From Thermoanaerobaculales bacterium (lineage in GTDB: Bacteria; Acidobacteriota; Thermoanaerobaculia; Thermoanaerobaculales; Sulfomarinibacteraceae), in NCBI GenBank assembly GCA_029287235.1, contig JARFRM010000139.1:1-64000 (forward strand): a stretch of DNA of 64,000 nt, read 5' to 3'. Below, piece after piece: positions 65 through 38,482 of the stretch; position 1 is the stretch's first letter; every line of letters begins with the position of its first letter. The position numbers and the translations under genes were made by a program. The notes below the pieces were generated by a model that worked only from the letters and a program-made list of their open reading frames with translations, had not been told where the DNA came from and ran no database searches.

Positions 65-953
65 TTAGGTGAAAGGAGTCCACTGCTGGGCTACGGAGTT
101 GTGGAAAACGGCCGCCGTTTCCCACAGCCACCGCAGCCCCGTTGACTCGTGGCTCAATTGTACTCCTTCGCAGGCGGGGTGTTCTATTGCTCGATCCGCA
201 ATGTCACACGAAAGGTGGTCTATTGCTGAGACTCGTTCTGGGGCGCCGATGCCGAGAGCGTCTACCGGGCTGACGACACCTTTGCCTCCGAACCGGTTGA
301 GGACATGGGTGTAGATCATGGTCGTTTTGACATCCTTGTGGCCCAGGAGTTCCTGGATGGTTCGAATGTCGTAGCCGGCCATCAGGAGGTGTGTGGCGAA
401 GGAGTGCCACGCGGTCTTTGCGACCTTTGCCGTCGCGGATTGTAATCGCGCCGAGAGAGAAATCGACATCCTGAACACGGAGCCGCAGGCACTCGAGGAT
501 GCGCATACCGGTTCCGTAGAGAAGCATCACGATCAGCTGAGTTGTGCCTCCGAGGCGGGTAAGTAGGGCGACGACCTCTTCTTTCGAGAGGACCGTGGGG
601 AGCCGCTTGGGCTGGCGGGCGCGAACGATGTCTTCGATCCAGGGCGGGTCCATTTTGAGGACATTACGGTAGAGAAAGAGAATGGCACTCAGCGCCTGGC
701 GCTGTGTCGAGGCGGCGACCCGACCGTGAACGGCGAGGTGAGTCAGAAACCGGTTGAGGTCGTCGGCGGCGAGTTCCTTGGGATGTCGCCGGTGAAAACG
801 AAAGAACCGGTTCACCCAGCCGAGATAGGCCTCTTCGGTTCGGATGGAGTAGTGGTGGACCCGGATCGCTCGCCGCATGTTTTCGAGGAGCCTGGGGGCT
901 TCGGCCCGTTGGACGGTGGCGGGGTGGGGGATTACCTTCATGGTGTAAAACAA
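65..953 (-). pseudogene. Integron-integrase-like tyrosine recombinase, inactivated by internal deletion and frameshift
   Basis: The N-terminal reading frame (953 down to about 440) encodes the SAM-like core-binding domain and the first half of an IntI-type catalytic domain. It includes the region around [16 protein letters not shown] that carries the first catalytic Arg. At about 430-445 the sequence jumps straight from the GKGRKDRV segment into [13 protein letters not shown], in another frame. Roughly 70-80 codons that normally lie between these motifs, including the His of the H-x-x-R box, are missing. The C-terminal frame keeps [16 protein letters not shown] with the nucleophile Tyr and the typical SPVD ending, then runs on to a stop near 65. 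Intact IntI proteins are about 320-340 residues. The gene is therefore decayed and cannot recombine. I see no convincing attI or attC array in the part of the flank that is visible. Confidence 0.85.
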
Positions 954-6913: not shown

Positions 6914-9900
6914 TCATTGAACCCTCCCCGGAATATAGGTCGGGTCGCCGGTGGCTTCGTCGACCACCGAGGCGTGGGCGAAGTACCTCGCATGAGGTTC
7001 CACGCCTGTAACCTCGGCCCAGGCTGTGCCAATGAAGCCCGCCACCACCGAGAGCGCCCGTTCCACTTGGACGAATCCCTGCGCCGGAAGCGCGACATCG
7101 ATCTCGCCGAGGGTTGAACCGGTGTTCGAGTAGACGGTCACGGTCAGGGTGGTCGCAACCTCCGAAACGGAGGTGAAGCCGAGGTTGGTCCGAAAACCGG
7201 GTTCGGACGAAAGCCCGGGCAAGATCACCGTGCCTGCCGACGTCGTCGAGGTTTCCATGCCGGAGGCCGGGATCAGCTGGCCATAGCTGCCGTCGGCGTC
7301 ATCGTTGTAGGTTCGGCTCGTGGCGTGGATCCCGGAACCCGAGGCGGTGACTGTCAGCCACCCCTTTCCGGTCTCACCGAAAAGACCACCGACGACATCA
7401 TCGAAGTGAAGAGTCCCCGCTCCCTGGAGCTCCATGGGCATGCTCGTGATGGCGGTGCCGTCGGCGCGTGTGTAGACCACGGTGACCGACCGGGGCTCAC
7501 CGGTGGTGTTGACCACGTCCAGCTGTGATCGCCATGAGGTGCCGCCGGCGCCCGGGATCGCCGCGACGGCAGGAATCACGAGGTCAGCTGAAGTCGAAGA
7601 GGCATCCAGAACCTGCGGCACGACCAGAGTCGGATCGTGCGAAGCGTCGTCCACCACCGATGCATAGGCGAGGTAGAGGGCGTCTGCGTCAGCGGCGGCG
7701 AAGGTCGCGTAGCCCCCGACGACGACATCCCCGGTGAGCTTGGAGATCACGGACACGACCTGGGCGAATGCGCCGGGTTGGGCGTGCACCTGACGGGTTC
7801 CGAGCAGCTCGCCCGCGGTGCTGAAGAACCGGTAATCGACGGAGAGCGGATCGGGGCCGAGATTGAGCACGCCGATGTTGGTGTGGAAACCGCCGTTGCC
7901 GGAGAGACCGGCCAGCAGGGCGCGGGTGTTGCCGTCAAGGGCGTTGTGGTGCCCTTGGGCAGCGATGAACTGGCCATAGCTCCCGTCGGCACCGGAAGCG
8001 AAGGTGCGCGAGACCGCCACCAGTCCGGCTCCGCTCGTCCTCAGATTCACGCCGCCGCTCCCGCCGGCGCCGGTCGCGCGGACGAGGTCTTGGATAACTC
8101 GTTGCGAGCGTGCCGGAACCTCGAAGCCGGCATCGGGGCTGTCCGATTCGCGCCCGACACCGGGTCTGAAGATCAGGTCGGTTTGGAGGTCCTCGTCGGT
8201 GGGGTTGAGCAGGAAGGCCTTTGATGACCAGCGGGTGTCGCCGAGACCGGGACCGCTGGCGGCGGCCGTGAAACTGGCCTCGTCCACCGGATTCTCGCCG
8301 ACGTGGGCGCGCAGGGGCACCCGGGCCACCGGGACAGAGGGGTCGTTGCTGTGAATGGTCAGGTGGCCGTCGAGAGTTCCGAGCGGTGGGTCTTCGAGCC
8401 CGATTGTGAGAATCCTCGACACGCCTGGCGGAATGGACCTGATCACACCCTTGGATTCGGTGAGAACAAACGGGCTGTCCGCCTCGACGACAGTGATGTC
8501 CAGGCCCTCGGTGCCGGTGTTGGTGACCGAGATCGTGCCCGTAGCGGAATCGTCGCCGATGCCCAGCGACAGAGCAACGGGGTCAATCTCGAGGCGGGGA
8601 GCTCCCTCACCGGTGGCGGTGAGACGCACCGTCTTGAGCGGCTGACCGGGGTCTCCGGTATGGAAGATCACCGAGCCCGTGGTCGTACCGATCTCCGTCG
8701 GGCTGAACCTAATTCGCACCTCGTTGGAGCGTCCGGGCTCGAATACGGTCGGAACCACGTCGGCGAGAAAGAACCCCTCACCATCGACGGTCGTTGTGAC
8801 CGCGAGTGGCTGTCCGCCCAGGTTGAGAGCGGCGAAGGAGGTTTCGGAGATTCCCCCTACGGGAACCCGACCCACCGTGGCCGAGGCGGGCGCGGCGAGC
8901 AGTGAGTCGTCATAGAGGGTGCCTATCCCCGTCACCCGGAGATAGGCGCCCCCCTCGCGATCGGGATCGTTGCTCTGGATGTAGAACCAGTCCGTCTTGG
9001 TTCCATAGCCTGCAGGATCGAAGATCAGCTCCACGGGCCTGGTTTCACCCGGGGCAATGGTCAGGGGAAACTCGGGCGGGTCGTTGAGGCTGAACGAACC
9101 CCCGTCCTCCGGCCAAACGCCCTCCACCACCAGGTCGACGCCCCCGACGTTGGTGAGCGGCAGGATGCGGGTTGCCTGACCGGTGCCCACGACGAGACCG
9201 AAGTCATAGCCGTCGGGGAAGCCCGGCCCGAGCTCGAGGTCGGGTTGCGAGACGTGGGCGATCTCGCAGAGCACGCGGGTGTTCGGATCGATCTCGACGT
9301 TTTCGGCATCGGCCTGGAGCGGGATCGAGATCGTCTGTTCAGCCTCGGCCTCGAACCACACGCGGTGGTCTTCGACTCCTTCAGATGTTGTGACCCGAAC
9401 ATCCATGGGCATACGGAAGAGGCCGGTGTTGGTCTGTTTCTGACCCACCATGAGCTCGAGGTTCGAGCCCCCGACGTTGCTCCAGGAATAGACGTAGCGC
9501 GGCCTGTTGAGCCCATAGACCCACTGGTCGAAGAACCAGCCGAGCTCCATCCCGCCGGCGTCCTCCATGGCGGCCTGGAGGTCATCGGTGGTGGCGGTTC
9601 CGCCGGCATGCTCCGCGCGGTAGGCGGCCATGGCGTCGAAAAAGGCTTCGTCGCCGACGACGTGGCGGAGCATCCAGGCAACCCACGAACCCTTGGCGTA
9701 GATGGTCCAGGAAAAGGGCTCCGGGTTGTCGTAGACCGGACCCCGGAACTGACCCAGATAGTCATCGTCCTCGAGGTACTGGGCCAGGACATCGGGGCCC
9801 AGATGTTCGGCCCAAAGCCACTCGGAGTGGGTGGCATAGCCCTCGTTGAGCCAGATATGGCGCCAGTCGTCCATAGTGACCCAGTCGCCCCACCACTGGT

Positions 9901-10987
9901 GGCCGAGCTCGTGGACGTTAAGCCACTGCATCCAGGGGTCGCCGACGCGGTAGACCGAGAGGGTGGTCATGGTCTGGTGCTCCATGCCGCCGCCGAAGAA
10001 GACCGTTGCATTGCCGTACTTCTCCTCGATGAAGGGGTACTCGCCCCAGCGGTCGGCCATGACCTCGATCTGGGGCACGGTGACGGCGAGGTCGGCCTCC
10101 GCCTGGGCCGCCACCTGCGGCATCGCCCAGAGGGAGACCGGCATGGTGGTGCCGTCGAGCCCGGTGTAGGTCGCTTCGGAGTAGACGAAGTCGGAGATGT
10201 GCATCACGACCAGATATGTGGGCACCGGGTAGATGGACGACCAGACGCTGGTCGCCGTTCCGTCGCCGTTGTCGACCCTCGATCGCTCGAGGCCGTTGGC
10301 GGCGACATCCAGGTCTCCCGGCACCGTCACCCGCAGCGACACGGTGGCCTTGTCATCCGGGCGATCGTTGCAGGGCCACCAGATCCGGGCGCCGTATGGC
10401 TGGGCGAAGGTGTGGATGACGGGGGTGCCGGCGTTGGAGTACCAGTTGACCCCGGTGGAGCCGATGAGACCGCTCCGCCAGGCGCGCCCGCCGTAGGTCA
10501 CCTGAAATCTCGCCCCTTCGCCCGCAGCGAGCGGGTGTCCGAGGGTGATGGTGAGCCGGTCGTCGTCGTGTTCGAAGGGGAGCGAAGTGGGTGTGTCATA
10601 GGGGAAGCGGTCATCGCTCAGCTGGAGGACCGACAGCACGCGGAGGCCGAGATCGGCATCGAGGGTGATCGACCCCAGACCGTCTTCGACGGCAATGAGA
10701 TCGACCGTCACGCTTCCGGACAACACCTGCGCCGAGGAATCGACGTGGAGGTCGAGTTCATAGTGGGTGACGTCGTAGACCGACGGCTGCTCTTCGGAGG
10801 CCCAGTTCTTGACGCCGGCGTCCCGATTTCGGCGATGGGCCTCGAGGGCTGCGCGTTTGCTCGCGCCTTCTTCGAGCTGGTGTTTCACGATGGATGGCGG
10901 CTCGAAGACCCCGTCAGGCGGTCCGGCAGCGGGGACCGAGACGACGTTGGCGGCGGCGAGAAAGAAACCGAGGACAGATGACGACAT
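6914..10987 (-). CDS. Large secreted M1-family aminopeptidase with Ig-like and C-terminal repeat regions
   Basis: The 1357-residue protein has an N-terminal signal peptide (MSSSVLGFFLAAANVVSVPAA). A gluzincin M1 peptidase follows, with zinc ligands His359 and His363 and Glu382, in HELGHQWWGDW and WLNEGYATHSEW, and an exopeptidase-like GGGMEH segment ahead. After about residue 600 come several Ig-like repeats of the choice-of-anchor/ASH type (repeated LTNVGG, SNDPDREG and TGDPGQP themes). The C-terminal 350 or so residues repeat a beta-rich unit twice (for example NLGPDPLSVDYRF and NTTGEPRSVTVVY). This modular tail is typical of exported proteins in large-genome bacteria. The start has GGAGG upstream. 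It probably degrades peptides outside the cell or at its surface. Confidence 0.9.
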   Translation of the reverse strand: MSSSVLGFFLAAANVVSVPAAGPPDGVFEPPSIVKHQLEEGASKRAALEAHRRNRDAGVKNWASEEQPSVYDVTHYELDLHVDSSAQVLSGSVTVDLIAVEDGLGSITLDADLGLRVLSVLQLSDDRFPYDTPTSLPFEHDDDRLTITLGHPLAAGEGARFQVTYGGRAWRSGLIGSTGVNWYSNAGTPVIHTFAQPYGARIWWPCNDRPDDKATVSLRVTVPGDLDVAANGLERSRVDNGDGTATSVWSSIYPVPTYLVVMHISDFVYSEATYTGLDGTTMPVSLWAMPQVAAQAEADLAVTVPQIEVMADRWGEYPFIEEKYGNATVFFGGGMEHQTMTTLSVYRVGDPWMQWLNVHELGHQWWGDWVTMDDWRHIWLNEGYATHSEWLWAEHLGPDVLAQYLEDDDYLGQFRGPVYDNPEPFSWTIYAKGSWVAWMLRHVVGDEAFFDAMAAYRAEHAGGTATTDDLQAAMEDAGGMELGWFFDQWVYGLNRPRYVYSWSNVGGSNLELMVGQKQTNTGLFRMPMDVRVTTSEGVEDHRVWFEAEAEQTISIPLQADAENVEIDPNTRVLCEIAHVSQPDLELGPGFPDGYDFGLVVGTGQATRILPLTNVGGVDLVVEGVWPEDGGSFSLNDPPEFPLTIAPGETRPVELIFDPAGYGTKTDWFYIQSNDPDREGGAYLRVTGIGTLYDDSLLAAPASATVGRVPVGGISETSFAALNLGGQPLAVTTTVDGEGFFLADVVPTVFEPGRSNEVRIRFSPTEIGTTTGSVIFHTGDPGQPLKTVRLTATGEGAPRLEIDPVALSLGIGDDSATGTISVTNTGTEGLDITVVEADSPFVLTESKGVIRSIPPGVSRILTIGLEDPPLGTLDGHLTIHSNDPSVPVARVPLRAHVGENPVDEASFTAAASGPGLGDTRWSSKAFLLNPTDEDLQTDLIFRPGVGRESDSPDAGFEVPARSQRVIQDLVRATGAGGSGGVNLRTSGAGLVAVSRTFASGADGSYGQFIAAQGHHNALDGNTRALLAGLSGNGGFHTNIGVLNLGPDPLSVDYRFFSTAGELLGTRQVHAQPGAFAQVVSVISKLTGDVVVGGYATFAAADADALYLAYASVVDDASHDPTLVVPQVLDASSTSADLVIPAVAAIPGAGGTSWRSQLDVVNTTGEPRSVTVVYTRADGTAITSMPMELQGAGTLHFDDVVGGLFGETGKGWLTVTASGSGIHATSRTYNDDADGSYGQLIPASGMETSTTSAGTVILPGLSSEPGFRTNLGFTSVSEVATTLTVTVYSNTGSTLGEIDVALPAQGFVQVERALSVVAGFIGTAWAEVTGVEPHARYFAHASVVDEATGDPTYIPGRVQ

Positions 10988-31877: not shown

Positions 31878-31971
31878 ATGATGCGCTCTCCCGCCGGTTC
31901 AGCTTTTCACCCGGCGGTCGCCGGCACCTGTTGGAGGAACGACCGGCGTGCAATTCCAAGGAGGAAAATCC

Positions 31972-33288
31972 ATGGACAAGACCAAGCTCGTCATCATGGG
32001 CGCGGCCGGACGCGATTTTCACAATTTCAACTGTCTCTTCCGGGACAACGAGAAGGTCGACGTCGTGGCCTTCACCGCGACCCAGATCCCGGATATCGAA
32101 GGTCGGATCTACCCGGCGGAGCTCGCCGGTTCACTCTATCCCGAGGGGATCCCCATCGTCGCCGAAGAAGAGCTCGAATCGGTCATCCGTGAGCACGATG
32201 TCGACGAGGTCTGGTTCTCGTACTCCGATGTTCCTCACAGCTATGTCATGAACAAGGCCAGCGAAGTCATCGGCTGGGGCCCCCACTTCGGCGTCTGCTC
32301 TGCGACCAAGACCATGGTGGAGTCGACCAAACCGCTCATCGCCATCACCGCGGTCCGCACCGGTGTCGGCAAATCACAGACCACGCGTTATGTGTCGCGA
32401 CTGCTCAAGAGTCTCGGCAAACGGGTGGTTGCCATCCGCCACCCCATGCCCTACGGCGATCTCGCCAAACAGGCGTGTCAGCGCTTCGAGACCTATGAGG
32501 ATCTCGACCGTCACCAGTGCACCATCGAGGAACGGGAGGAGTACGAGCCCCACATCGACAACGGTTTTGTTGTCTACGCCGGGGTCGACTACGAGCGGAT
32601 CGTTCGCGAGGCCGAGAAGGAGGCCGACGTCATCCTCTGGGACGGCGGCAACAACGACACCCCGTTCTACAAGCCCGACCTCCATATCACTCTGGTGGAT
32701 CCCCACCGCGCCGGACATGAGCTCAGCTACTACCCGGGCGAAACCAATCTTCGCATCTCGCACCTTCTCATCGTCAACAAGGTGGACACCGCCGATCCGG
32801 TGAAGGTCGAGCAGGTCATCGAAACCTGTCGGATGGCGAATCCGGCGGCCACCGTCATCAAGTGCCGATCGGTGATCACCGTCGACGAGCCCGAGCTCAT
32901 TGCCGGGAAACGAGCGTTGGTGGTCGAGGACGGCCCGACCCTCACCCACGGCGGCATGACCTACGGAGCGGGCTGGTTCGCGGCAAAACAGGCCGGCGCG
33001 TCCGAGATCGTCGATGCCAAGCCCTACGCCGTCGGCACGATCAAGGCGACCTACGAGAAATACCCCAACGCCGGAGCCATTCTGCCCGCCATGGGTTATG
33101 GCGATCAGCAGATCTCGGATTTGCAGGAGACCATCAACGCCACGCCGGCCGATGTCGTGGTCGAAGGAACGCCCATCGATCTCAAGCGCATCATCACCGT
33201 CAACAAGCCCATCGCCAACGTCCGCTACGAGCTCGAAGAGGTCGAGCCGGGTGTCATCGAGGAGATGGTCAAGGCCGTTCTGAAGTAG
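31972..33288 (+). CDS. GTPase of the cyclic 2,3-diphosphoglycerate synthetase family
   Basis: The 438-residue protein has a P-loop ITAVRTGVGKSQTTRY near 125-140 (G-x4-G-K-S). An N-terminal Rossmann-type domain (TKLVIMGAAGRDFHNFN) precedes it. Later there are DVILWDGGNNDTPFY, THGGMTYGAGW and a NKVDTADPVK segment where a G4-like motif sits. Overall layout fits the archaeal cDPG synthetase family, which has many bacterial members. In methanogens the product is a thermoprotectant; in bacteria the role is not established. The start has a near-perfect AAGGAGG ribosome site. A strong terminator follows. Confidence 0.78.
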   Translation: MDKTKLVIMGAAGRDFHNFNCLFRDNEKVDVVAFTATQIPDIEGRIYPAELAGSLYPEGIPIVAEEELESVIREHDVDEVWFSYSDVPHSYVMNKASEVIGWGPHFGVCSATKTMVESTKPLIAITAVRTGVGKSQTTRYVSRLLKSLGKRVVAIRHPMPYGDLAKQACQRFETYEDLDRHQCTIEEREEYEPHIDNGFVVYAGVDYERIVREAEKEADVILWDGGNNDTPFYKPDLHITLVDPHRAGHELSYYPGETNLRISHLLIVNKVDTADPVKVEQVIETCRMANPAATVIKCRSVITVDEPELIAGKRALVVEDGPTLTHGGMTYGAGWFAAKQAGASEIVDAKPYAVGTIKATYEKYPNAGAILPAMGYGDQQISDLQETINATPADVVVEGTPIDLKRIITVNKPIANVRYELEEVEPGVIEEMVKAVLK

Positions 33289-33362: not shown

Positions 33363-34229
33363 GTGAGCACAGGAAGAATATCCATCGCCCTCTGGATCGT
33401 CGCCTTTGTCCTGACCGTGATCCTCGCCGTGTTCCAGCGCATGACCGGCCCGAGCTATCCCAAGCGAGGCCGGACCGTGTCGACGGCCGGGGAAGAGGTC
33501 CGATTCCGCCTGCCGCGTTCGCACGGCGGTCCGGGAGGCCTCGAGGTCAGTATCTCCCCGCCGCCCGAAATTCGGCGTGGTGTCCTCGAATGGCGTCGAT
33601 ATCCCACCAACGACCCCTGGACCTCGGTGAGCCTGAGCCGCGGTGAGGATGGCCATCTCTCTGCGTCGGTGCCGAATCAGCCGCCCGCGGGAAAGGTCGA
33701 GTATCGGTTGCTGCTGGATGGGGATGGCGGGAGATTGGTCGTCCCCCAGGACGAACCGGTGGTGGCTAGATTCCGCGCCGATGTCCCCGCCTGGGTGCTG
33801 ATTCCGCACATTCTGGCCATGTTCGGCAGCATGCTGGTGTCGACCCGAGCCCTGCTCGAAGTTCTGAGGCCTTCAACCCCCGAGCCCCGGCGAACGGTTC
33901 TGGTGGCCATGGGGTTGCTGATGATCGGGGGGCTTTTTCTCGGCCCCGTGGTTCAGAAGTTCGCCTTCGGCGCCTACTGGACAGGGTGGCCCAACGGTTC
34001 CGATCTCACCGACAACAAGACACTGGTCGCCTTCATCGCCTGGCTTCCCGCGACGATCCTCGCACTCAAGGGACGAAAGCTCTGGGCGGCGGTCGTGGTG
34101 GGTTGGATCGTGATGATGGGGATCTTCCTGATACCCCACAGCCTCCGCGGTTCTGAGATGAACTGGTCGGAAGGGGAGATCAAGACCGGGGCCGTCATGA
34201 ACGAGAACCTGTCGAATCTGGCGGGCTGA
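33363..34229 (+). CDS. Membrane protein of unknown function
   Basis: The 288-residue protein starts with GTG. One N-terminal membrane helix (ISIALWIVAFVLTVILAVF) is followed by a periplasmic beta-rich domain of about 110 residues, with no cysteines. Four more membrane segments follow at about 145-163, 180-200, 220-236 and 242-260. I do not recognise a family with certainty. It precedes the CheW gene by 29 bases and could be in the same transcript. Confidence 0.7.
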   Translation: MSTGRISIALWIVAFVLTVILAVFQRMTGPSYPKRGRTVSTAGEEVRFRLPRSHGGPGGLEVSISPPPEIRRGVLEWRRYPTNDPWTSVSLSRGEDGHLSASVPNQPPAGKVEYRLLLDGDGGRLVVPQDEPVVARFRADVPAWVLIPHILAMFGSMLVSTRALLEVLRPSTPEPRRTVLVAMGLLMIGGLFLGPVVQKFAFGAYWTGWPNGSDLTDNKTLVAFIAWLPATILALKGRKLWAAVVVGWIVMMGIFLIPHSLRGSEMNWSEGEIKTGAVMNENLSNLAG

Positions 34230-34258: not shown

Positions 34259-34705
34259 ATGCGTAGTGATTCAGGCCATCCCGACAACGAAGACCACTTT
34301 CTTCTGGTGCGCAGCGGCGGGCACCGATGTGCCATTCCGGTAGGCGCGGCGAAGCTGGTCACCAAGGCGCCCAAGGTCTACCCACTTCCCAGCTCGGCGC
34401 TCCGATTGTTGGGGCTGGCCCAGGTCGCCGGTGAACCGGTCGCGGTCGTCGATCTCCACGCCATCCTCGATCCGGACGGGTGCCCGGGCGGGGGCCACGA
34501 ACTGACGGTGATCGTCCGAACTCGAGGTGGAGGTTCGGCGATAGGTCTGGCCATCGACGAGGCGTTCGGCGTCATCAGCGTCGGCCGTCAATGGCAGCGA
34601 TCGACCGACGATCCCGGGTGGGTGACGGGGAGAATGACGATGGATGGCCGAACGGTCGTCATTCTGGACCCGGAACAGCTCTTCGTCCCGGCGAGCGCCG
34701 ACTGA
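34259..34705 (+). CDS. cheW: CheW-like chemotaxis coupling protein
   Basis: The 148-residue single CheW domain shows FLLVRSGGHRCAIPVGAAKLV near the start, the GLAQVAGEPVAVVDLHAIL core and GLAIDEAFGVISV, in the usual CheW order. It links receptors to CheA. It is the first of a CheW-MCP-CheA run on the plus strand, separated from the MCP gene by 15 bases. The chemosensory class cannot be told from CheW alone. Confidence 0.82.
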   Translation: MRSDSGHPDNEDHFLLVRSGGHRCAIPVGAAKLVTKAPKVYPLPSSALRLLGLAQVAGEPVAVVDLHAILDPDGCPGGGHELTVIVRTRGGGSAIGLAIDEAFGVISVGRQWQRSTDDPGWVTGRMTMDGRTVVILDPEQLFVPASAD

Positions 34706-34720
34706 GAAGGGAGCAGCACC

Positions 34721-36352
34721 ATGCAGGTTGAGAGGCGTACTTCGATTCTCCGACAGTGGTTGGGAATGGCGATCCTGACGGTGGTGATCCTCGTCGGCGG
34801 CGTCATGCTCGAGATCACCTCCGACGGGGACAAGGAGGAGTGGTATATCGACGCCTGGATGGTCCTCGGCATCGCTGCGCTGGCGTCGCATCTGGTCCTC
34901 GTATCGCTACCCCGTGTCCGGCTCGAGCGCGCACACCGCGAACTCGAACAACGCCATGCCCGGCAGTGCACGATTCTAGAAGAGTCCCTCGAGGAGATGC
35001 GTCACGGCGACCTCGTCGAATTTCTCGGCCGTGTTGACCAACTACCCGAGGTGATGAGCGAGGCGGTGCAGGCCGCCGCACAGGCGATCTCAGCTCTTGT
35101 TCAACAGATTCAAACCTCGTCGGTTGAGGTCGCTACTTCCGCCGGAACCGTTCACGCGACCTCGGCCGAACTCGTCGAGGGTGCCTCTCAACAGGCAGCC
35201 GCCGTTGTCGAGATCACGGCGACCACGGAAGAGCTGGCACGGACCGCCGGTCAGATCGCCACCAGCGCCGGCGGTCAGGCGGAGTTCGTCGCCAAGGCAC
35301 AGGATGCCGGAAACAAGGGTGCCATTTCTCTCGAAGGGGCCGTCCAGGGCGTCGGGGAGCTACGCCACGGCATCGAGGCCATCGCCGATCGGGCCGACAT
35401 TCTCGGCAAACGCTCGCGGGAGATCTATCGCGTGTTGGATCTGATCACCGAGATTGCCCAGGAGACTCACATCCTCGCCCTCAACGCGGCCATCGAAGCC
35501 TCGGCGGCTGGGGAGCACGGCGACCGCTTCGGGGTGGTGGCGGAGGAGGTCCGCCGGCTTGCCGAGCGGTCACGCGAATCGGTTGAGTCGGTACGTCAGC
35601 TCCTGGATGGTTTCTCCGAGTCCATCCGATCGGTGGTGGTGGCGACCGAGGAAGGATCCAAGTCCGCCGTCCAGGTTCTCGAACAGAGTCGATCGACCCA
35701 AGATGCAATTGAACAGCTGCGCTCAGCCCTTGCCGACACGGCAGGTGCGGCCCGGGAGATCTCCCTGGCGACCGACGAGCAGCGGACAGCCTCGAATCAG
35801 GTCGTTCTGACCCTGAGGGAGATCAGTGAGGTCATCCAGCGCACCGCGGACAGTTTCCAGCAGTTCACGGATTCCGCCGAGCGCCTCAGCGGTCTGGCCT
35901 TGTCGATCCAGCTTCTTACTCAGAGTTTCCGAACCGACTCGGGTCACTCCCTCAAGAATCAGGTCCTCGGTTGGAGCGATCGGCTCAGAGATTCCACCGC
36001 CAACCTCGAAGTGGTCGAGGGTGTCCTGGCCGAAGTGGTTCGGAACTTCCCGTACATCGAAATCGCCTACCTCGTCGACACATCCGGGTCCATGGTGGCC
36101 TTCGAAGTCAACCGCACGGTGGTCGAGGACCACCGGCTCAAGGTGACCGTGTCGCCCGGTCAGGCATTCGCCGATCGACCGTGGTTTCAGGCCGTCAGCC
36201 GCGATCAACGAACCGCGGTCACGCCGCCCTACGTTTCTCTGCTCACCGATGATCGGTGCTTCACCATCGCCGCCGCGGTTCGGAACCGGTCCGGCGCCAT
36301 GATCGGCATCCTCGGAGTCGACGTCAATGTGCGCAGCTGGACCAGTATCTGA
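34721..36352 (+). CDS. Methyl-accepting chemotaxis protein with C-terminal Cache/PDC-like domain
   Basis: The protein is 543 residues. Two membrane helices (about 13-34 and 43-63) are separated by only a few periplasmic residues, so there is almost no periplasmic sensor. A coiled-coil signalling domain follows with the conserved hairpin TEIAQETHILALNAAIEAS and FGVVAEEVRRLAERS near 243-285. From about residue 440 to the end there is a PAS-like PDC/Cache fold: YIEIAYLVDTSGSMV, FADRPWFQAV, TPPYVS and IGILGVDVN. Cache modules are nearly always periplasmic and N-terminal. Here the module is C-terminal and, from the topology, cytoplasmic. Confidence 0.87.
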   Translation: MQVERRTSILRQWLGMAILTVVILVGGVMLEITSDGDKEEWYIDAWMVLGIAALASHLVLVSLPRVRLERAHRELEQRHARQCTILEESLEEMRHGDLVEFLGRVDQLPEVMSEAVQAAAQAISALVQQIQTSSVEVATSAGTVHATSAELVEGASQQAAAVVEITATTEELARTAGQIATSAGGQAEFVAKAQDAGNKGAISLEGAVQGVGELRHGIEAIADRADILGKRSREIYRVLDLITEIAQETHILALNAAIEASAAGEHGDRFGVVAEEVRRLAERSRESVESVRQLLDGFSESIRSVVVATEEGSKSAVQVLEQSRSTQDAIEQLRSALADTAGAAREISLATDEQRTASNQVVLTLREISEVIQRTADSFQQFTDSAERLSGLALSIQLLTQSFRTDSGHSLKNQVLGWSDRLRDSTANLEVVEGVLAEVVRNFPYIEIAYLVDTSGSMVAFEVNRTVVEDHRLKVTVSPGQAFADRPWFQAVSRDQRTAVTPPYVSLLTDDRCFTIAAAVRNRSGAMIGILGVDVNVRSWTSI

Positions 36353-36448
36353 GCCCGCGCTCTTGCCCGGGTTTCGGTCGCGGATCGGGACGGACCAGGG
36401 CCACCGGGGGATCCTCATCTCCGCCGGCACTGCGGATTGCGGACTCTG

Positions 36449-38482
36449 ATGCGCAACGACGTCGACGATCTGGTCCCGCTCTTTCTCGATGAGGCCGGAT
36501 CGCGCCTCGATCGGCTCGCTACCCTCCTCGGTGCTGCAGCGGAGGACCCGGACGCGGCTGTTCAGGTGCGGAGAGAGCTGCACGCGCTCAAGGGGGCGGC
36601 TCGGCTGATGGGCCTGTCCGAGCTCGCGGATCTCTGTCATCAGGCCGAGGACTGCATGGTGGGGGAGCGGGCCACCGGCATCGATGCCGCCCGGACCATC
36701 GTAGAGGATCTGGCGGGAATCGTCGATGAGTTGCACGACCAATTGGCCACCCCCGCAACCGATCAGGCCGTCACGAGCCCGGAGATCCCGCCCATCAGCG
36801 AGCGGGCCATCCGTGGTGGGTCGGGTGAGCTCAGGGTGGCGACGGAGATCGTTGACGGTCTTGCGGAAAGAAGCGCGCGGATGAAGATCACCGCCAGAGC
36901 CGGCGGCGCTCCCGTCCAACGACTCTTCGAGCTCGCTTCGATGGCCGAGAGAGGTCATGCCCAGGCTTCGCCCGAGCTCGTCCTCTCCGAACTCGGAGCT
37001 TCGCTCCGGCGCGCGGCACTCGAGATCGAAGCGACCACCAAGACCCTGCACCGGCTCAGCGAAGAGCAGCTCGATTCGTCACTCCGACTTCAGGTTCAGC
37101 CGCTTCGACCGTTCCTTCGCACCCTCGCGCGGCACACCCGAGAACTCGCCGCCTCCTTGGGCAAGGAGGTCAGAGTCACCACATCGGGGGGCGACGTACA
37201 ACTCGATCGTCGGATTCTCGAGGCGGTTCGAGAGGCGGCCCTCCATCTCGCGCACAACGCCGTGGATCATGGCGTCGAGGACGCGCAGACCCGGGCTGGA
37301 AGGGGCAAGAATGCCGAGGGCCGAATCCATTTTGGCGCCGAGGCCGACGGCGATCGGGTGCAACTCATCGTCTGGGACGATGGATGCGGAATCGATCCGG
37401 AGGCGGTGGTGAAGGTCGCTGTTGAACGAGGCCTCATCAATCGCTCGGCGGCCGCCAAGCTCTCCGCCGACGATTCCTATCAACTCCTGCAATTGCCGGG
37501 TTTCACGACCCGGAATCTCGCCACCGACGTTTCCGGCCGGGGCATCGGGCTGGATGCCGTGGCAGCCTCGTTCCGCGCCAACGGCGGCGATATCTGGATC
37601 CGCTCGGCCCTGGGCGAAGGAACCAGGGTCACGGTGGAGGTCCCCGTCGCCCGGCGCGGCGAGCGGGTGCTGGTGGTCCAGGTCGGAGAGCACGTCCTGG
37701 CCCTCCCCGCTTCAGCGGTTCGTTCATTCAGTCGACTCCGTCCCGAGATGGTCTTCACCGACGAGGGCAGGACCTTTGTCCGCCAGGGGCAATCGACCAT
37801 CGGCGCCGTTTTTCTCGCCTCGCTCTTCGGAGGTCGGGAATCAGCTCACGCCATCCTGGTGGAGACCACCATCGCAGGATCCGCGACCGCCATCGTGGTC
37901 GACGCCATCCTCGGGGAGGAGGAGGTCTTTGTTCGAACCCTTCCCGGGATCGCCGGCGCACCCTCGACGGTGACGGGAGTGGCGCTCCTGTCCACCGGGC
38001 GTCCGGTGGCGGTGCTCTCACTCCAACTGCTGGGTCCACTCGATCTCGGCGAGAGCGGCCAACGGCACAGCCCGTACGAGATCGGGCAGACGGCCCTGCA
38101 GGTGCTCTTGACCGACGACAACGATGCCACCCGCGAAATGATACGTCGGTTGCTCGAGGACGCCGGATTCACCGTCACCCCGGTGGAGTCGGCGGAGGAG
38201 GCCCTCCGCCGCATTGAGCTCGAACCCTTCGACTGCGTGGTCACCGGAGTCGAGCTCCCGGGACTCAGCGGCATTGACCTCACTCGTCGAGTCCGCTCGA
38301 GCGATCTCTTCTCGGATCTGCCGGTGGTTGTCGTCTCGACCCGGGATCTGCCGGCCGATCGGTTGGCCGGCCTCGAAGCCGGGGCCGACGCCTACCTCAC
38401 CAAACAGGGTCTGGAACCCGAGCACCTTGCCGGATTGATCCACCGAATCGCCGGAGGAGCGGTCCAGGATCGGGACGCCTGA
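36449..38482 (+). CDS. cheA: CheA-family histidine kinase with CheW domain and degenerate receiver
   Basis: The protein is 677 residues. HPt is at the start, with the phosphorylated His in LHALKGAARLMG. A linker follows with no recognisable P2. The HATPase has N-box HNAVDHGVED, G1 WDDGCGIDP and G2 GRGIGLDAV. A CheW-like domain follows (RVLVVQVGEHVLALPASAV). The C-terminal receiver has VLLTDDND and Lys in YLTKQG, but its phosphoacceptor position reads VVTGVELP, giving Gly600 (codon GGA at 38246-38248) where Asp is needed. The ATG at 36449 is preferred over the TTG at 36437. No cheR, cheB or separate cheY is beside it. Confidence 0.9.
   Translation: MRNDVDDLVPLFLDEAGSRLDRLATLLGAAAEDPDAAVQVRRELHALKGAARLMGLSELADLCHQAEDCMVGERATGIDAARTIVEDLAGIVDELHDQLATPATDQAVTSPEIPPISERAIRGGSGELRVATEIVDGLAERSARMKITARAGGAPVQRLFELASMAERGHAQASPELVLSELGASLRRAALEIEATTKTLHRLSEEQLDSSLRLQVQPLRPFLRTLARHTRELAASLGKEVRVTTSGGDVQLDRRILEAVREAALHLAHNAVDHGVEDAQTRAGRGKNAEGRIHFGAEADGDRVQLIVWDDGCGIDPEAVVKVAVERGLINRSAAAKLSADDSYQLLQLPGFTTRNLATDVSGRGIGLDAVAASFRANGGDIWIRSALGEGTRVTVEVPVARRGERVLVVQVGEHVLALPASAVRSFSRLRPEMVFTDEGRTFVRQGQSTIGAVFLASLFGGRESAHAILVETTIAGSATAIVVDAILGEEEVFVRTLPGIAGAPSTVTGVALLSTGRPVAVLSLQLLGPLDLGESGQRHSPYEIGQTALQVLLTDDNDATREMIRRLLEDAGFTVTPVESAEEALRRIELEPFDCVVTGVELPGLSGIDLTRRVRSSDLFSDLPVVVVSTRDLPADRLAGLEAGADAYLTKQGLEPEHLAGLIHRIAGGAVQDRDA

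Follow-up and report, generated by a model that had tools for sequence, protein, structure and literature searches.

A membrane-anchored chemoreceptor of the Thermoanaerobaculales with a Cache module behind the signalling hairpin, probably facing the cytosol

Among the extracellular sensors of prokaryotes, Cache domains are described as the most common type, and according to a 2016 survey an extracellular Cache can signal only via its C-terminal membrane helix (PMC4822843). Two principally intracellular Cache families, Diacid_rec and YkuI_C, are also named there (PMC4822843). A solved precedent for a C-terminal ligand domain controlling the MCP hairpin is the CZB domain of TlpD (PMC12871147). 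On the output side, a CheA with a fused receiver, a CheR carrying a TPR and a multidomain response regulator are characteristic of ACF pathways, Wsp among them (PMC3447774).

The window considered here, i.e. the whole stretch of 64,000 nucleotides that was analysed, comes from a Thermoanaerobaculales genome whose 5.07 Mb are spread over 336 contigs and which contains two genes matching the MCP signalling family PF00015. A phage-type integrase gene (207-953, minus strand) lies at the window edge, and a gene for a 1357-residue protein with M1 peptidase and HYDIN-like Ig-type domains occupies positions 6917-10987 (minus strand). The receptor gene under study is organised as follows.

34721..36352, plus strand: chemoreceptor (MCP) gene, 543 amino acids, stop codon included in the end coordinate (orthologues, Pfam)
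34760..34909, plus strand: membrane hairpin, residues ~14-63 (hydropathy in 29/29 orthologues, K+R counts, model helices)
35345..35833, plus strand: MCP signalling domain, residues 209-371 in Pfam (PF00015, E 2.3e-28)
35933..36004, plus strand: linker, residues 405-428, connecting the signalling hairpin with the Cache module (alignment)
36005..36349, plus strand: C-terminal Cache module, residues 429-543 (Pfam, model, Foldseek, VIA-align, conservation)

The open reading frame is confirmed to encode an MCP in which two almost neighbouring membrane helices are followed by a signalling hairpin and, at the C-terminus, by a Cache. The PF00015 match reaches 99.6 bits against a cut-off of 34.6 in the window protein and recurs in all 29 aligned orthologues, a coiled-coil stretch lies between the membrane helices and the signalling domain, and the coiled coil of the hairpin extends to about residue 401 in a full-length AlphaFold model that is weak (pTM 0.53, single chain). 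The orthologues are full-length and share the ends of the window protein, and the dN/dS of the whole receptor is 0.10 and 0.18 against two same-genus copies with dS near saturation; together these rule out chance or a frame artefact as the origin of the reading frame. The order of signalling hairpin, Cache and stop codon is kept in 29/29 aligned orthologues, so that the reversed arrangement proposed in the initial annotation, with the Cache C-terminal to the hairpin, is conserved. The search of 99 genomes of the class yielded 30 loci; L002 duplicates the window, L028 was omitted from both alignments for its internal stop, and six matches without loci (two each in G003, G013 and G087) are likewise absent from both. 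The stop in L028 (genome G008, contig C202) is a single in-frame TAG, indicating either a pseudogene or an assembly error.

The Cache profile dCache_1 matches the window protein with E 3.9e-8 over its whole length and 2.2e-8 with the C-terminal segment alone, at 33.6 bits against a curated Pfam cut-off of 45 bits and thus below it. MCP-like_PDC_1 gives E 7.9e-6 for the whole protein (26.7 bits, just under the cut-off of 27 bits) and 6.8e-7 for the segment alone (30.2 bits, over it). Because the window protein by itself lies under the dCache_1 cut-off, its relatives and its structure were examined. Among the 29 aligned orthologues, dCache_1 matches every one (best E 4.2e-18) and MCP-like_PDC_1 matches 25. 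The 12 Pfam families listed for the 29 orthologues at E 0.01 include no PAS family, an absence of match that does not amount to proof, and a search of the C-terminus against NCBIfam returned nothing useful. Residues 405-543, predicted from 35 sequences, gave a model of Cache fold with a mean pLDDT of 89.0 and a pTM of 0.86, for which Foldseek found 129 matches at E <=0.001 among solved structures; the best was the sensor domain of the sporulation kinase KinD (E 1e-7), and CtaA, PctA, PctB and Tlp3 were also matched. In VIA-align, 5ere, KinD, Tlp3 and DctB stand near the top, with Z scores of 13.6-17.2 among the best 50 entries. These profile matches and solved Cache-type structures make a PAS or unrelated family unlikely as the identity of the C-terminus, an outcome that the initial annotation had named as speaking against it, and they bear out its assignment of a PDC/Cache-like module after the signalling hairpin. 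The isolated segment covers only positions 62-153 of the 240 in the dCache_1 profile, and this partial coverage indicates a single module of ~115 residues resembling the membrane-distal module of a double Cache; the two tandem modules of a double Cache are not found in the window receptor.

Five residues, R486, W488, F489, Y504 and D534, are candidates for the pocket. In the 35 aligned sequences R486, W488, S506, D534, W540 and E447 are invariant, Y504, T501, T509 and T515 are kept in 33, and position 489 is F or Y throughout. In two remote receptor paralogues that neighbour each other in genome G087 (contig C37, 21110-24792; loci L071 and L077), the pocket residue Y504 is replaced by Met and Glu. 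In amino-acid-binding Cache domains an arginine and a tryptophan contact the ligand carboxylate while a second tyrosine and an aspartate contact the amino group, as described in PMC11237719 and, for PctA, in PMC10104139. The corresponding motif dCache_1AA is printed in the former as [YFWL]....[RK].W[WYF]..[YF]..D and also with a four-residue spacing (PMC11237719). The window protein agrees with the motif at five of its six positions; the first is occupied by Q481, which rules out the full motif in this receptor. Among the 35 aligned sequences the full motif occurs in six with the five-residue spacing and in one with the four-residue spacing. Amine and purine motifs were compared via their description and with partial motif letters, as available in PMC10104139 and PMC11245519.

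The best relative by sequence profile is KinD (E 1.7e-5), which shares with the receptor Cache the arginine and a Y-x-S-x-x-T-G-x-x-x-F-T block. R486 aligns with KinD R131 in HMM alignments, and the chain of the KinD R131A mutant shows alanine in that column, which identifies R131 as the partner of R486. One KinD structure entry is, by its title, a pyruvate complex. Based on the shared arginine and this pyruvate-bound structure, a small carboxylate is our first guess for the ligand and an amino acid our second. Aligned structures show R-P-W, P-Y and G-x-D to be common among dCache_1 domains at large; since R, W, Y and D thus form a common dCache_1 pattern, their conservation may be partly structural. 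From the conserved pocket residues we infer, in line with the last part of the initial annotation, that the receptor may sense a metabolite inside the cell.

Linker residues S410 and K412 are invariant in 29/29 orthologues, and the receptor stops directly after the last Cache strand and the conserved W540, the chain ending three residues past W540 in 26 orthologues and five past it in the remaining three of the 29. With the protein ending right after the Cache, a C-terminal output path is lacking, and the only covalent route leads through the N-terminal helix into the hairpin, to whose descending helix the Cache is joined. A rival reading is a Cache-fold module that no longer senses a ligand and serves as a structural piece, pairing receptor dimers or docking CheR, an enzyme or a polar anchor. 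Contact sites could then be the S410/K412 linker and three invariant residues of surface type, E447, W540 and I543, and polar localisation of Helicobacter pylori TlpD reportedly requires an intact C-terminus. However, judged by the alignment, the conserved set centres on the ligand-binding positions of relatives (R486, W488, Y504 and D534) and not on one face of the domain only, and we consider a purely structural role unlikely.

The membrane part was characterised by hydropathy, charge and modelling. All 29 orthologues carry two hydrophobic stretches within the first ~73 residues, and in the AlphaFold model the helices 5-33 and 39-94 are about five residues apart, which upholds the initial statement that the membrane helices are almost adjacent and leave no room for a periplasmic sensor. 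The turn, approximately residues 34-42, is short and probably periplasmic. Lysine and arginine average 2.1 in residues 1-13, 0.5 in the turn region 32-43 and 3.8 in residues 64-80 over the 29 orthologues; they are commoner outside the turn, as expected of a hairpin with both ends inside. In none of the 29 orthologues does a hydrophobic segment exceed the threshold between residues 142 and 430. A third membrane helix ahead of the Cache, the other finding that was to speak against the initial annotation, is thereby ruled out. The Cache is placed in the cytoplasm since the signalling hairpin must meet CheW and CheA inside and no membrane crossing follows it; a location outside, between or after membrane helices, as in extracellular Cache sensors, does not apply to the window receptor.

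The two-helix hairpin could itself be the main sensor, reporting on membrane state, electron transport or surface contact, with the Cache merely tuning its response. Its retention in 29/29 aligned orthologues despite the absence of an outside domain fits such a role, and Wsp-type systems are associated with surface growth. Yet the membrane part is the least conserved region, with a mean column identity over the 29 orthologues of 0.40-0.48 versus 0.60 in the Cache and 0.72-0.81 in the signalling hairpin, and its dN/dS in two same-genus comparisons (0.18 and 0.28) exceeds that of the Cache (0.09 and 0.19). The latter values indicate that the Cache is under purifying selection, and sensing mainly by the membrane hairpin appears improbable to us. 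That the receptor is an ordinary outside-facing Cache receptor with a misread topology, owing to a third helix or an inverted insertion, is hardly credible: the mildly hydrophobic 19-residue windows of up to 1.72 at residues ~431-464 of L006, L008 and L009 that might suggest it coincide with the first Cache helix and strands of the model (H429-442, E446-463), are read as buried strands and are absent in the window protein, where the maximum after residue 90 is 1.11, and the signalling hairpin must be inside for CheW/CheA with no later membrane crossing. The reading as an MCP of reversed order with an inside Cache is thus supported.

Whole-genome searches for further copies were confined to the same phylum, with 496 genomes and small follow-ups. 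Matches at <=1e-30 were obtained in 33 of 99 genomes: the order contributes 32 of its 37 genomes, that of the window among them, and the remaining 62 genomes of the class contribute one. A search of 396 phylum genomes with the C-terminal alignment gave 16 with a match at <=1e-5. Relatives outside the order include those in G087 (two neighbouring copies), G150, G171 and G320; when the class to which G150 belongs was searched further, 2 of 6 genomes had relatives. The full sequences of L071, L072 and L073 show the same order of membrane hairpin, MCP domain and Cache as the window receptor; for L074 and L077 the comparison covers the C-terminal region. The weak matches in G242 and G366 were excluded from the count of same architecture; of these, L076 reads as a Cache sensor kinase with the Cache ahead of the kinase. 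A contig scan with two restrictive peptide patterns found no loci outside Acidobacteriota, which is not evidence of their absence, and among 72,556 plasmid records none covers both hairpin and Cache, the two matches each spanning 33-35% of the query. On these sequence comparisons the design is kept across one bacterial order, with scattered relatives elsewhere in Acidobacteriota.

The receptor gene is flanked by genes for its predicted coupling partners, CheW and CheA.

34259..34705, plus strand: cheW, directly upstream of the receptor gene (PF01584, E 1.1e-17)
36437..38482, plus strand: cheA-type kinase gene with Hpt, HATPase, CheW and receiver domains (Pfam); the TTG start comes from the ORF lister and is provisional
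38246..38248, plus strand: codon 604 in the CheA receiver, glycine at the expected phospho-acceptor aspartate (CheA alignment)

This neighbourhood was compared in 28 named loci from metagenome-assembled genomes of Thermoanaerobaculales and other Acidobacteriota, Thermoanaerobaculum included. The cheW gene lies upstream of the receptor in 23 of them; two contigs begin inside the receptor gene and three show no match at 1e-8. Directly downstream, cheA is found in 26 of the 28, and the other two loci end within ~230 bases. Beyond cheA, cheB occurs in 17/28 and cheR in 15/28, some copies being truncated where the locus stops, whereas REC-GGDEF genes of full length are present in 9/28; six of the 28 loci end too early to judge the genes there. 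L039 has cheR, whose product carries a TPR, and no cheB, and within ~3 kb none of cheB, cheR and REC-GGDEF is present in L033, L034, L040 and L041. Further upstream in the window, positions 31948-33285 (plus strand) encode a protein of 446 residues that matches no Pfam or NCBIfam family at 1e-4 but is 81-92% identical in all relatives having it upstream of the receptor operon. A 288-residue protein encoded just upstream of cheW (33363-34226, plus strand) likewise matches no family of either collection at 1e-4, its one weak hit being at 0.014, and holds the same position in the relatives of family f1.

The REC-GGDEF gene separates two families of loci. All nine REC-GGDEF loci are assigned to the sister family f2, and every f2 locus with enough DNA is among them, whereas in family f1 none of the 13 loci with enough DNA has the gene. 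The sister-family operon continues after cheA with cheB, a PleD-like REC-GGDEF gene and cheR; in L059 the REC-GGDEF gene, whose product resembles PleD, lies at 7432-9872 together with cheB, and equivalents are found in L045, L049-L052, L056, L057 and L060. We infer that the sister-family pathway, and probably that of the ancestor, has c-di-GMP as its output. After cheA of the window, and likewise in L033 and L034, cheB, cheR and a cyclase gene are absent. The single CheR and the single CheB of the window genome are encoded on contig C124 with other chemotaxis genes, away from the receptor gene, and the best match of the sister-family REC-GGDEF protein in this genome spans the GGDEF part only, so that no clear REC-GGDEF orthologue was found in it. 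With respect to the marks of Wsp-like pathways, the window thus has the fused-receiver CheA and lacks a REC-GGDEF gene in the cluster. In the phospho-acceptor column of 26 aligned CheA sequences, three (window, L033 and L034) have glycine, 20 have aspartate and three are blank, being cut by contig ends. The glycine receiver is not a product of simple decay, as its non-synonymous difference between window and L033 (pN 0.060) is the lowest of the CheA domains compared (others 0.095-0.218); its dN/dS is 0.064 in this pair, with dS near 1. The altered receiver, the operon context and the order-wide conservation are additions to the initial annotation.

Taken together, we consider it rather probable that the protein is a chemoreceptor tethered to the membrane that uses its inside-facing C-terminal Cache to sense a small cytosolic carboxylate or amino acid, with signalling running backwards; ligand, direction of signalling and output in the window are the deduced parts of this proposal. 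Both ends of the signalling hairpin would lie near the membrane, and the Cache would sit beside the hairpin base, where an ordinary receptor has its HAMP domain. The Cache pocket might bind a small metabolite of the cytosol, for which a carboxylate such as pyruvate or an amino acid is the likeliest candidate, with the carboxylate held by R486 and with Y504 and D534 on the opposite side. Ligand binding would then shift the N-terminal helix of the Cache and the S410/K412 linker, which might alter the packing of the signalling hairpin and thereby the activity of the kinase from the adjacent gene, CheA in its CheW-bound form. Wsp-like c-di-GMP synthesis was probably the ancestral output. In the genus of the window the output would have been rewired, with the CheB, CheR and cyclase genes gone from the cluster and the CheA receiver presumably a conserved pseudo-receiver. 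The more specific proposition that the Cache works backwards, facing the cytosol without a C-terminal exit and driving its output via the N-terminal helix, is held tentatively and with slightly less than even confidence.

An order-wide cytoplasmic Cache without a C-terminal exit poses the testable question whether the N-terminal helix of a Cache can carry its signal. In that case, Cache output would not be tied to a C-terminal membrane helix. From a sensor of nutrients outside the cell, an old lineage would have made a gauge of metabolites inside it for the control of c-di-GMP, and one genus, with its pseudo-receiver CheA, would later have rewired this control. The receptor may couple a chemosensory kinase, and in relatives also c-di-GMP, to a metabolite inside the cell.

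Compared with the known Cache/PDC sensors, namely the distal module of dCache_1 and the domains of KinD, PctA/PctB, CtaA, Tlp3 and DctB, the module of the window receptor has the same fold, length and pocket pattern. The known domains, however, are extracellular and placed before or between membrane helices, whereas that of the window receptor is single, cytoplasmic, located after the output domain and devoid of a C-terminal helix leading out. TlpD offers a similar arrangement, since its ligand domain is likewise C-terminal and lies next to the base of the MCP hairpin (PMC12871147), but it is soluble and its CZB domain is helical and binds zinc, in contrast to the membrane anchor and the Cache found here. 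Diacid_rec and YkuI_C share with the receptor the presence of a Cache-superfamily domain inside the cell; neither is among the Pfam matches obtained here, and the present module belongs to the dCache_1/MCP-like_PDC_1 type and is fused to an MCP. The sister family resembles the Wsp system (WspA-F, WspR) in combining an MCP, CheW, a CheA with fused receiver, CheB, CheR and a receiver-GGDEF protein in one operon, and L039 adds CheR-TPR, one of the ACF marks (PMC3447774). It differs from Wsp in its one CheW gene, its gene order and its PleD-like regulator; moreover, the receptor has no outside domain, and the genus of the window lacks cheB, cheR and a cyclase gene in the cluster. A C-terminal, cytoplasmic or intracellular Cache in a chemoreceptor was not found described in the titles and abstracts of the open-licence literature searched, which does not show that it is unpublished. 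The comparison suggests that the domains and the signalling machine are known ones, in an order and location for which that literature gave no description.
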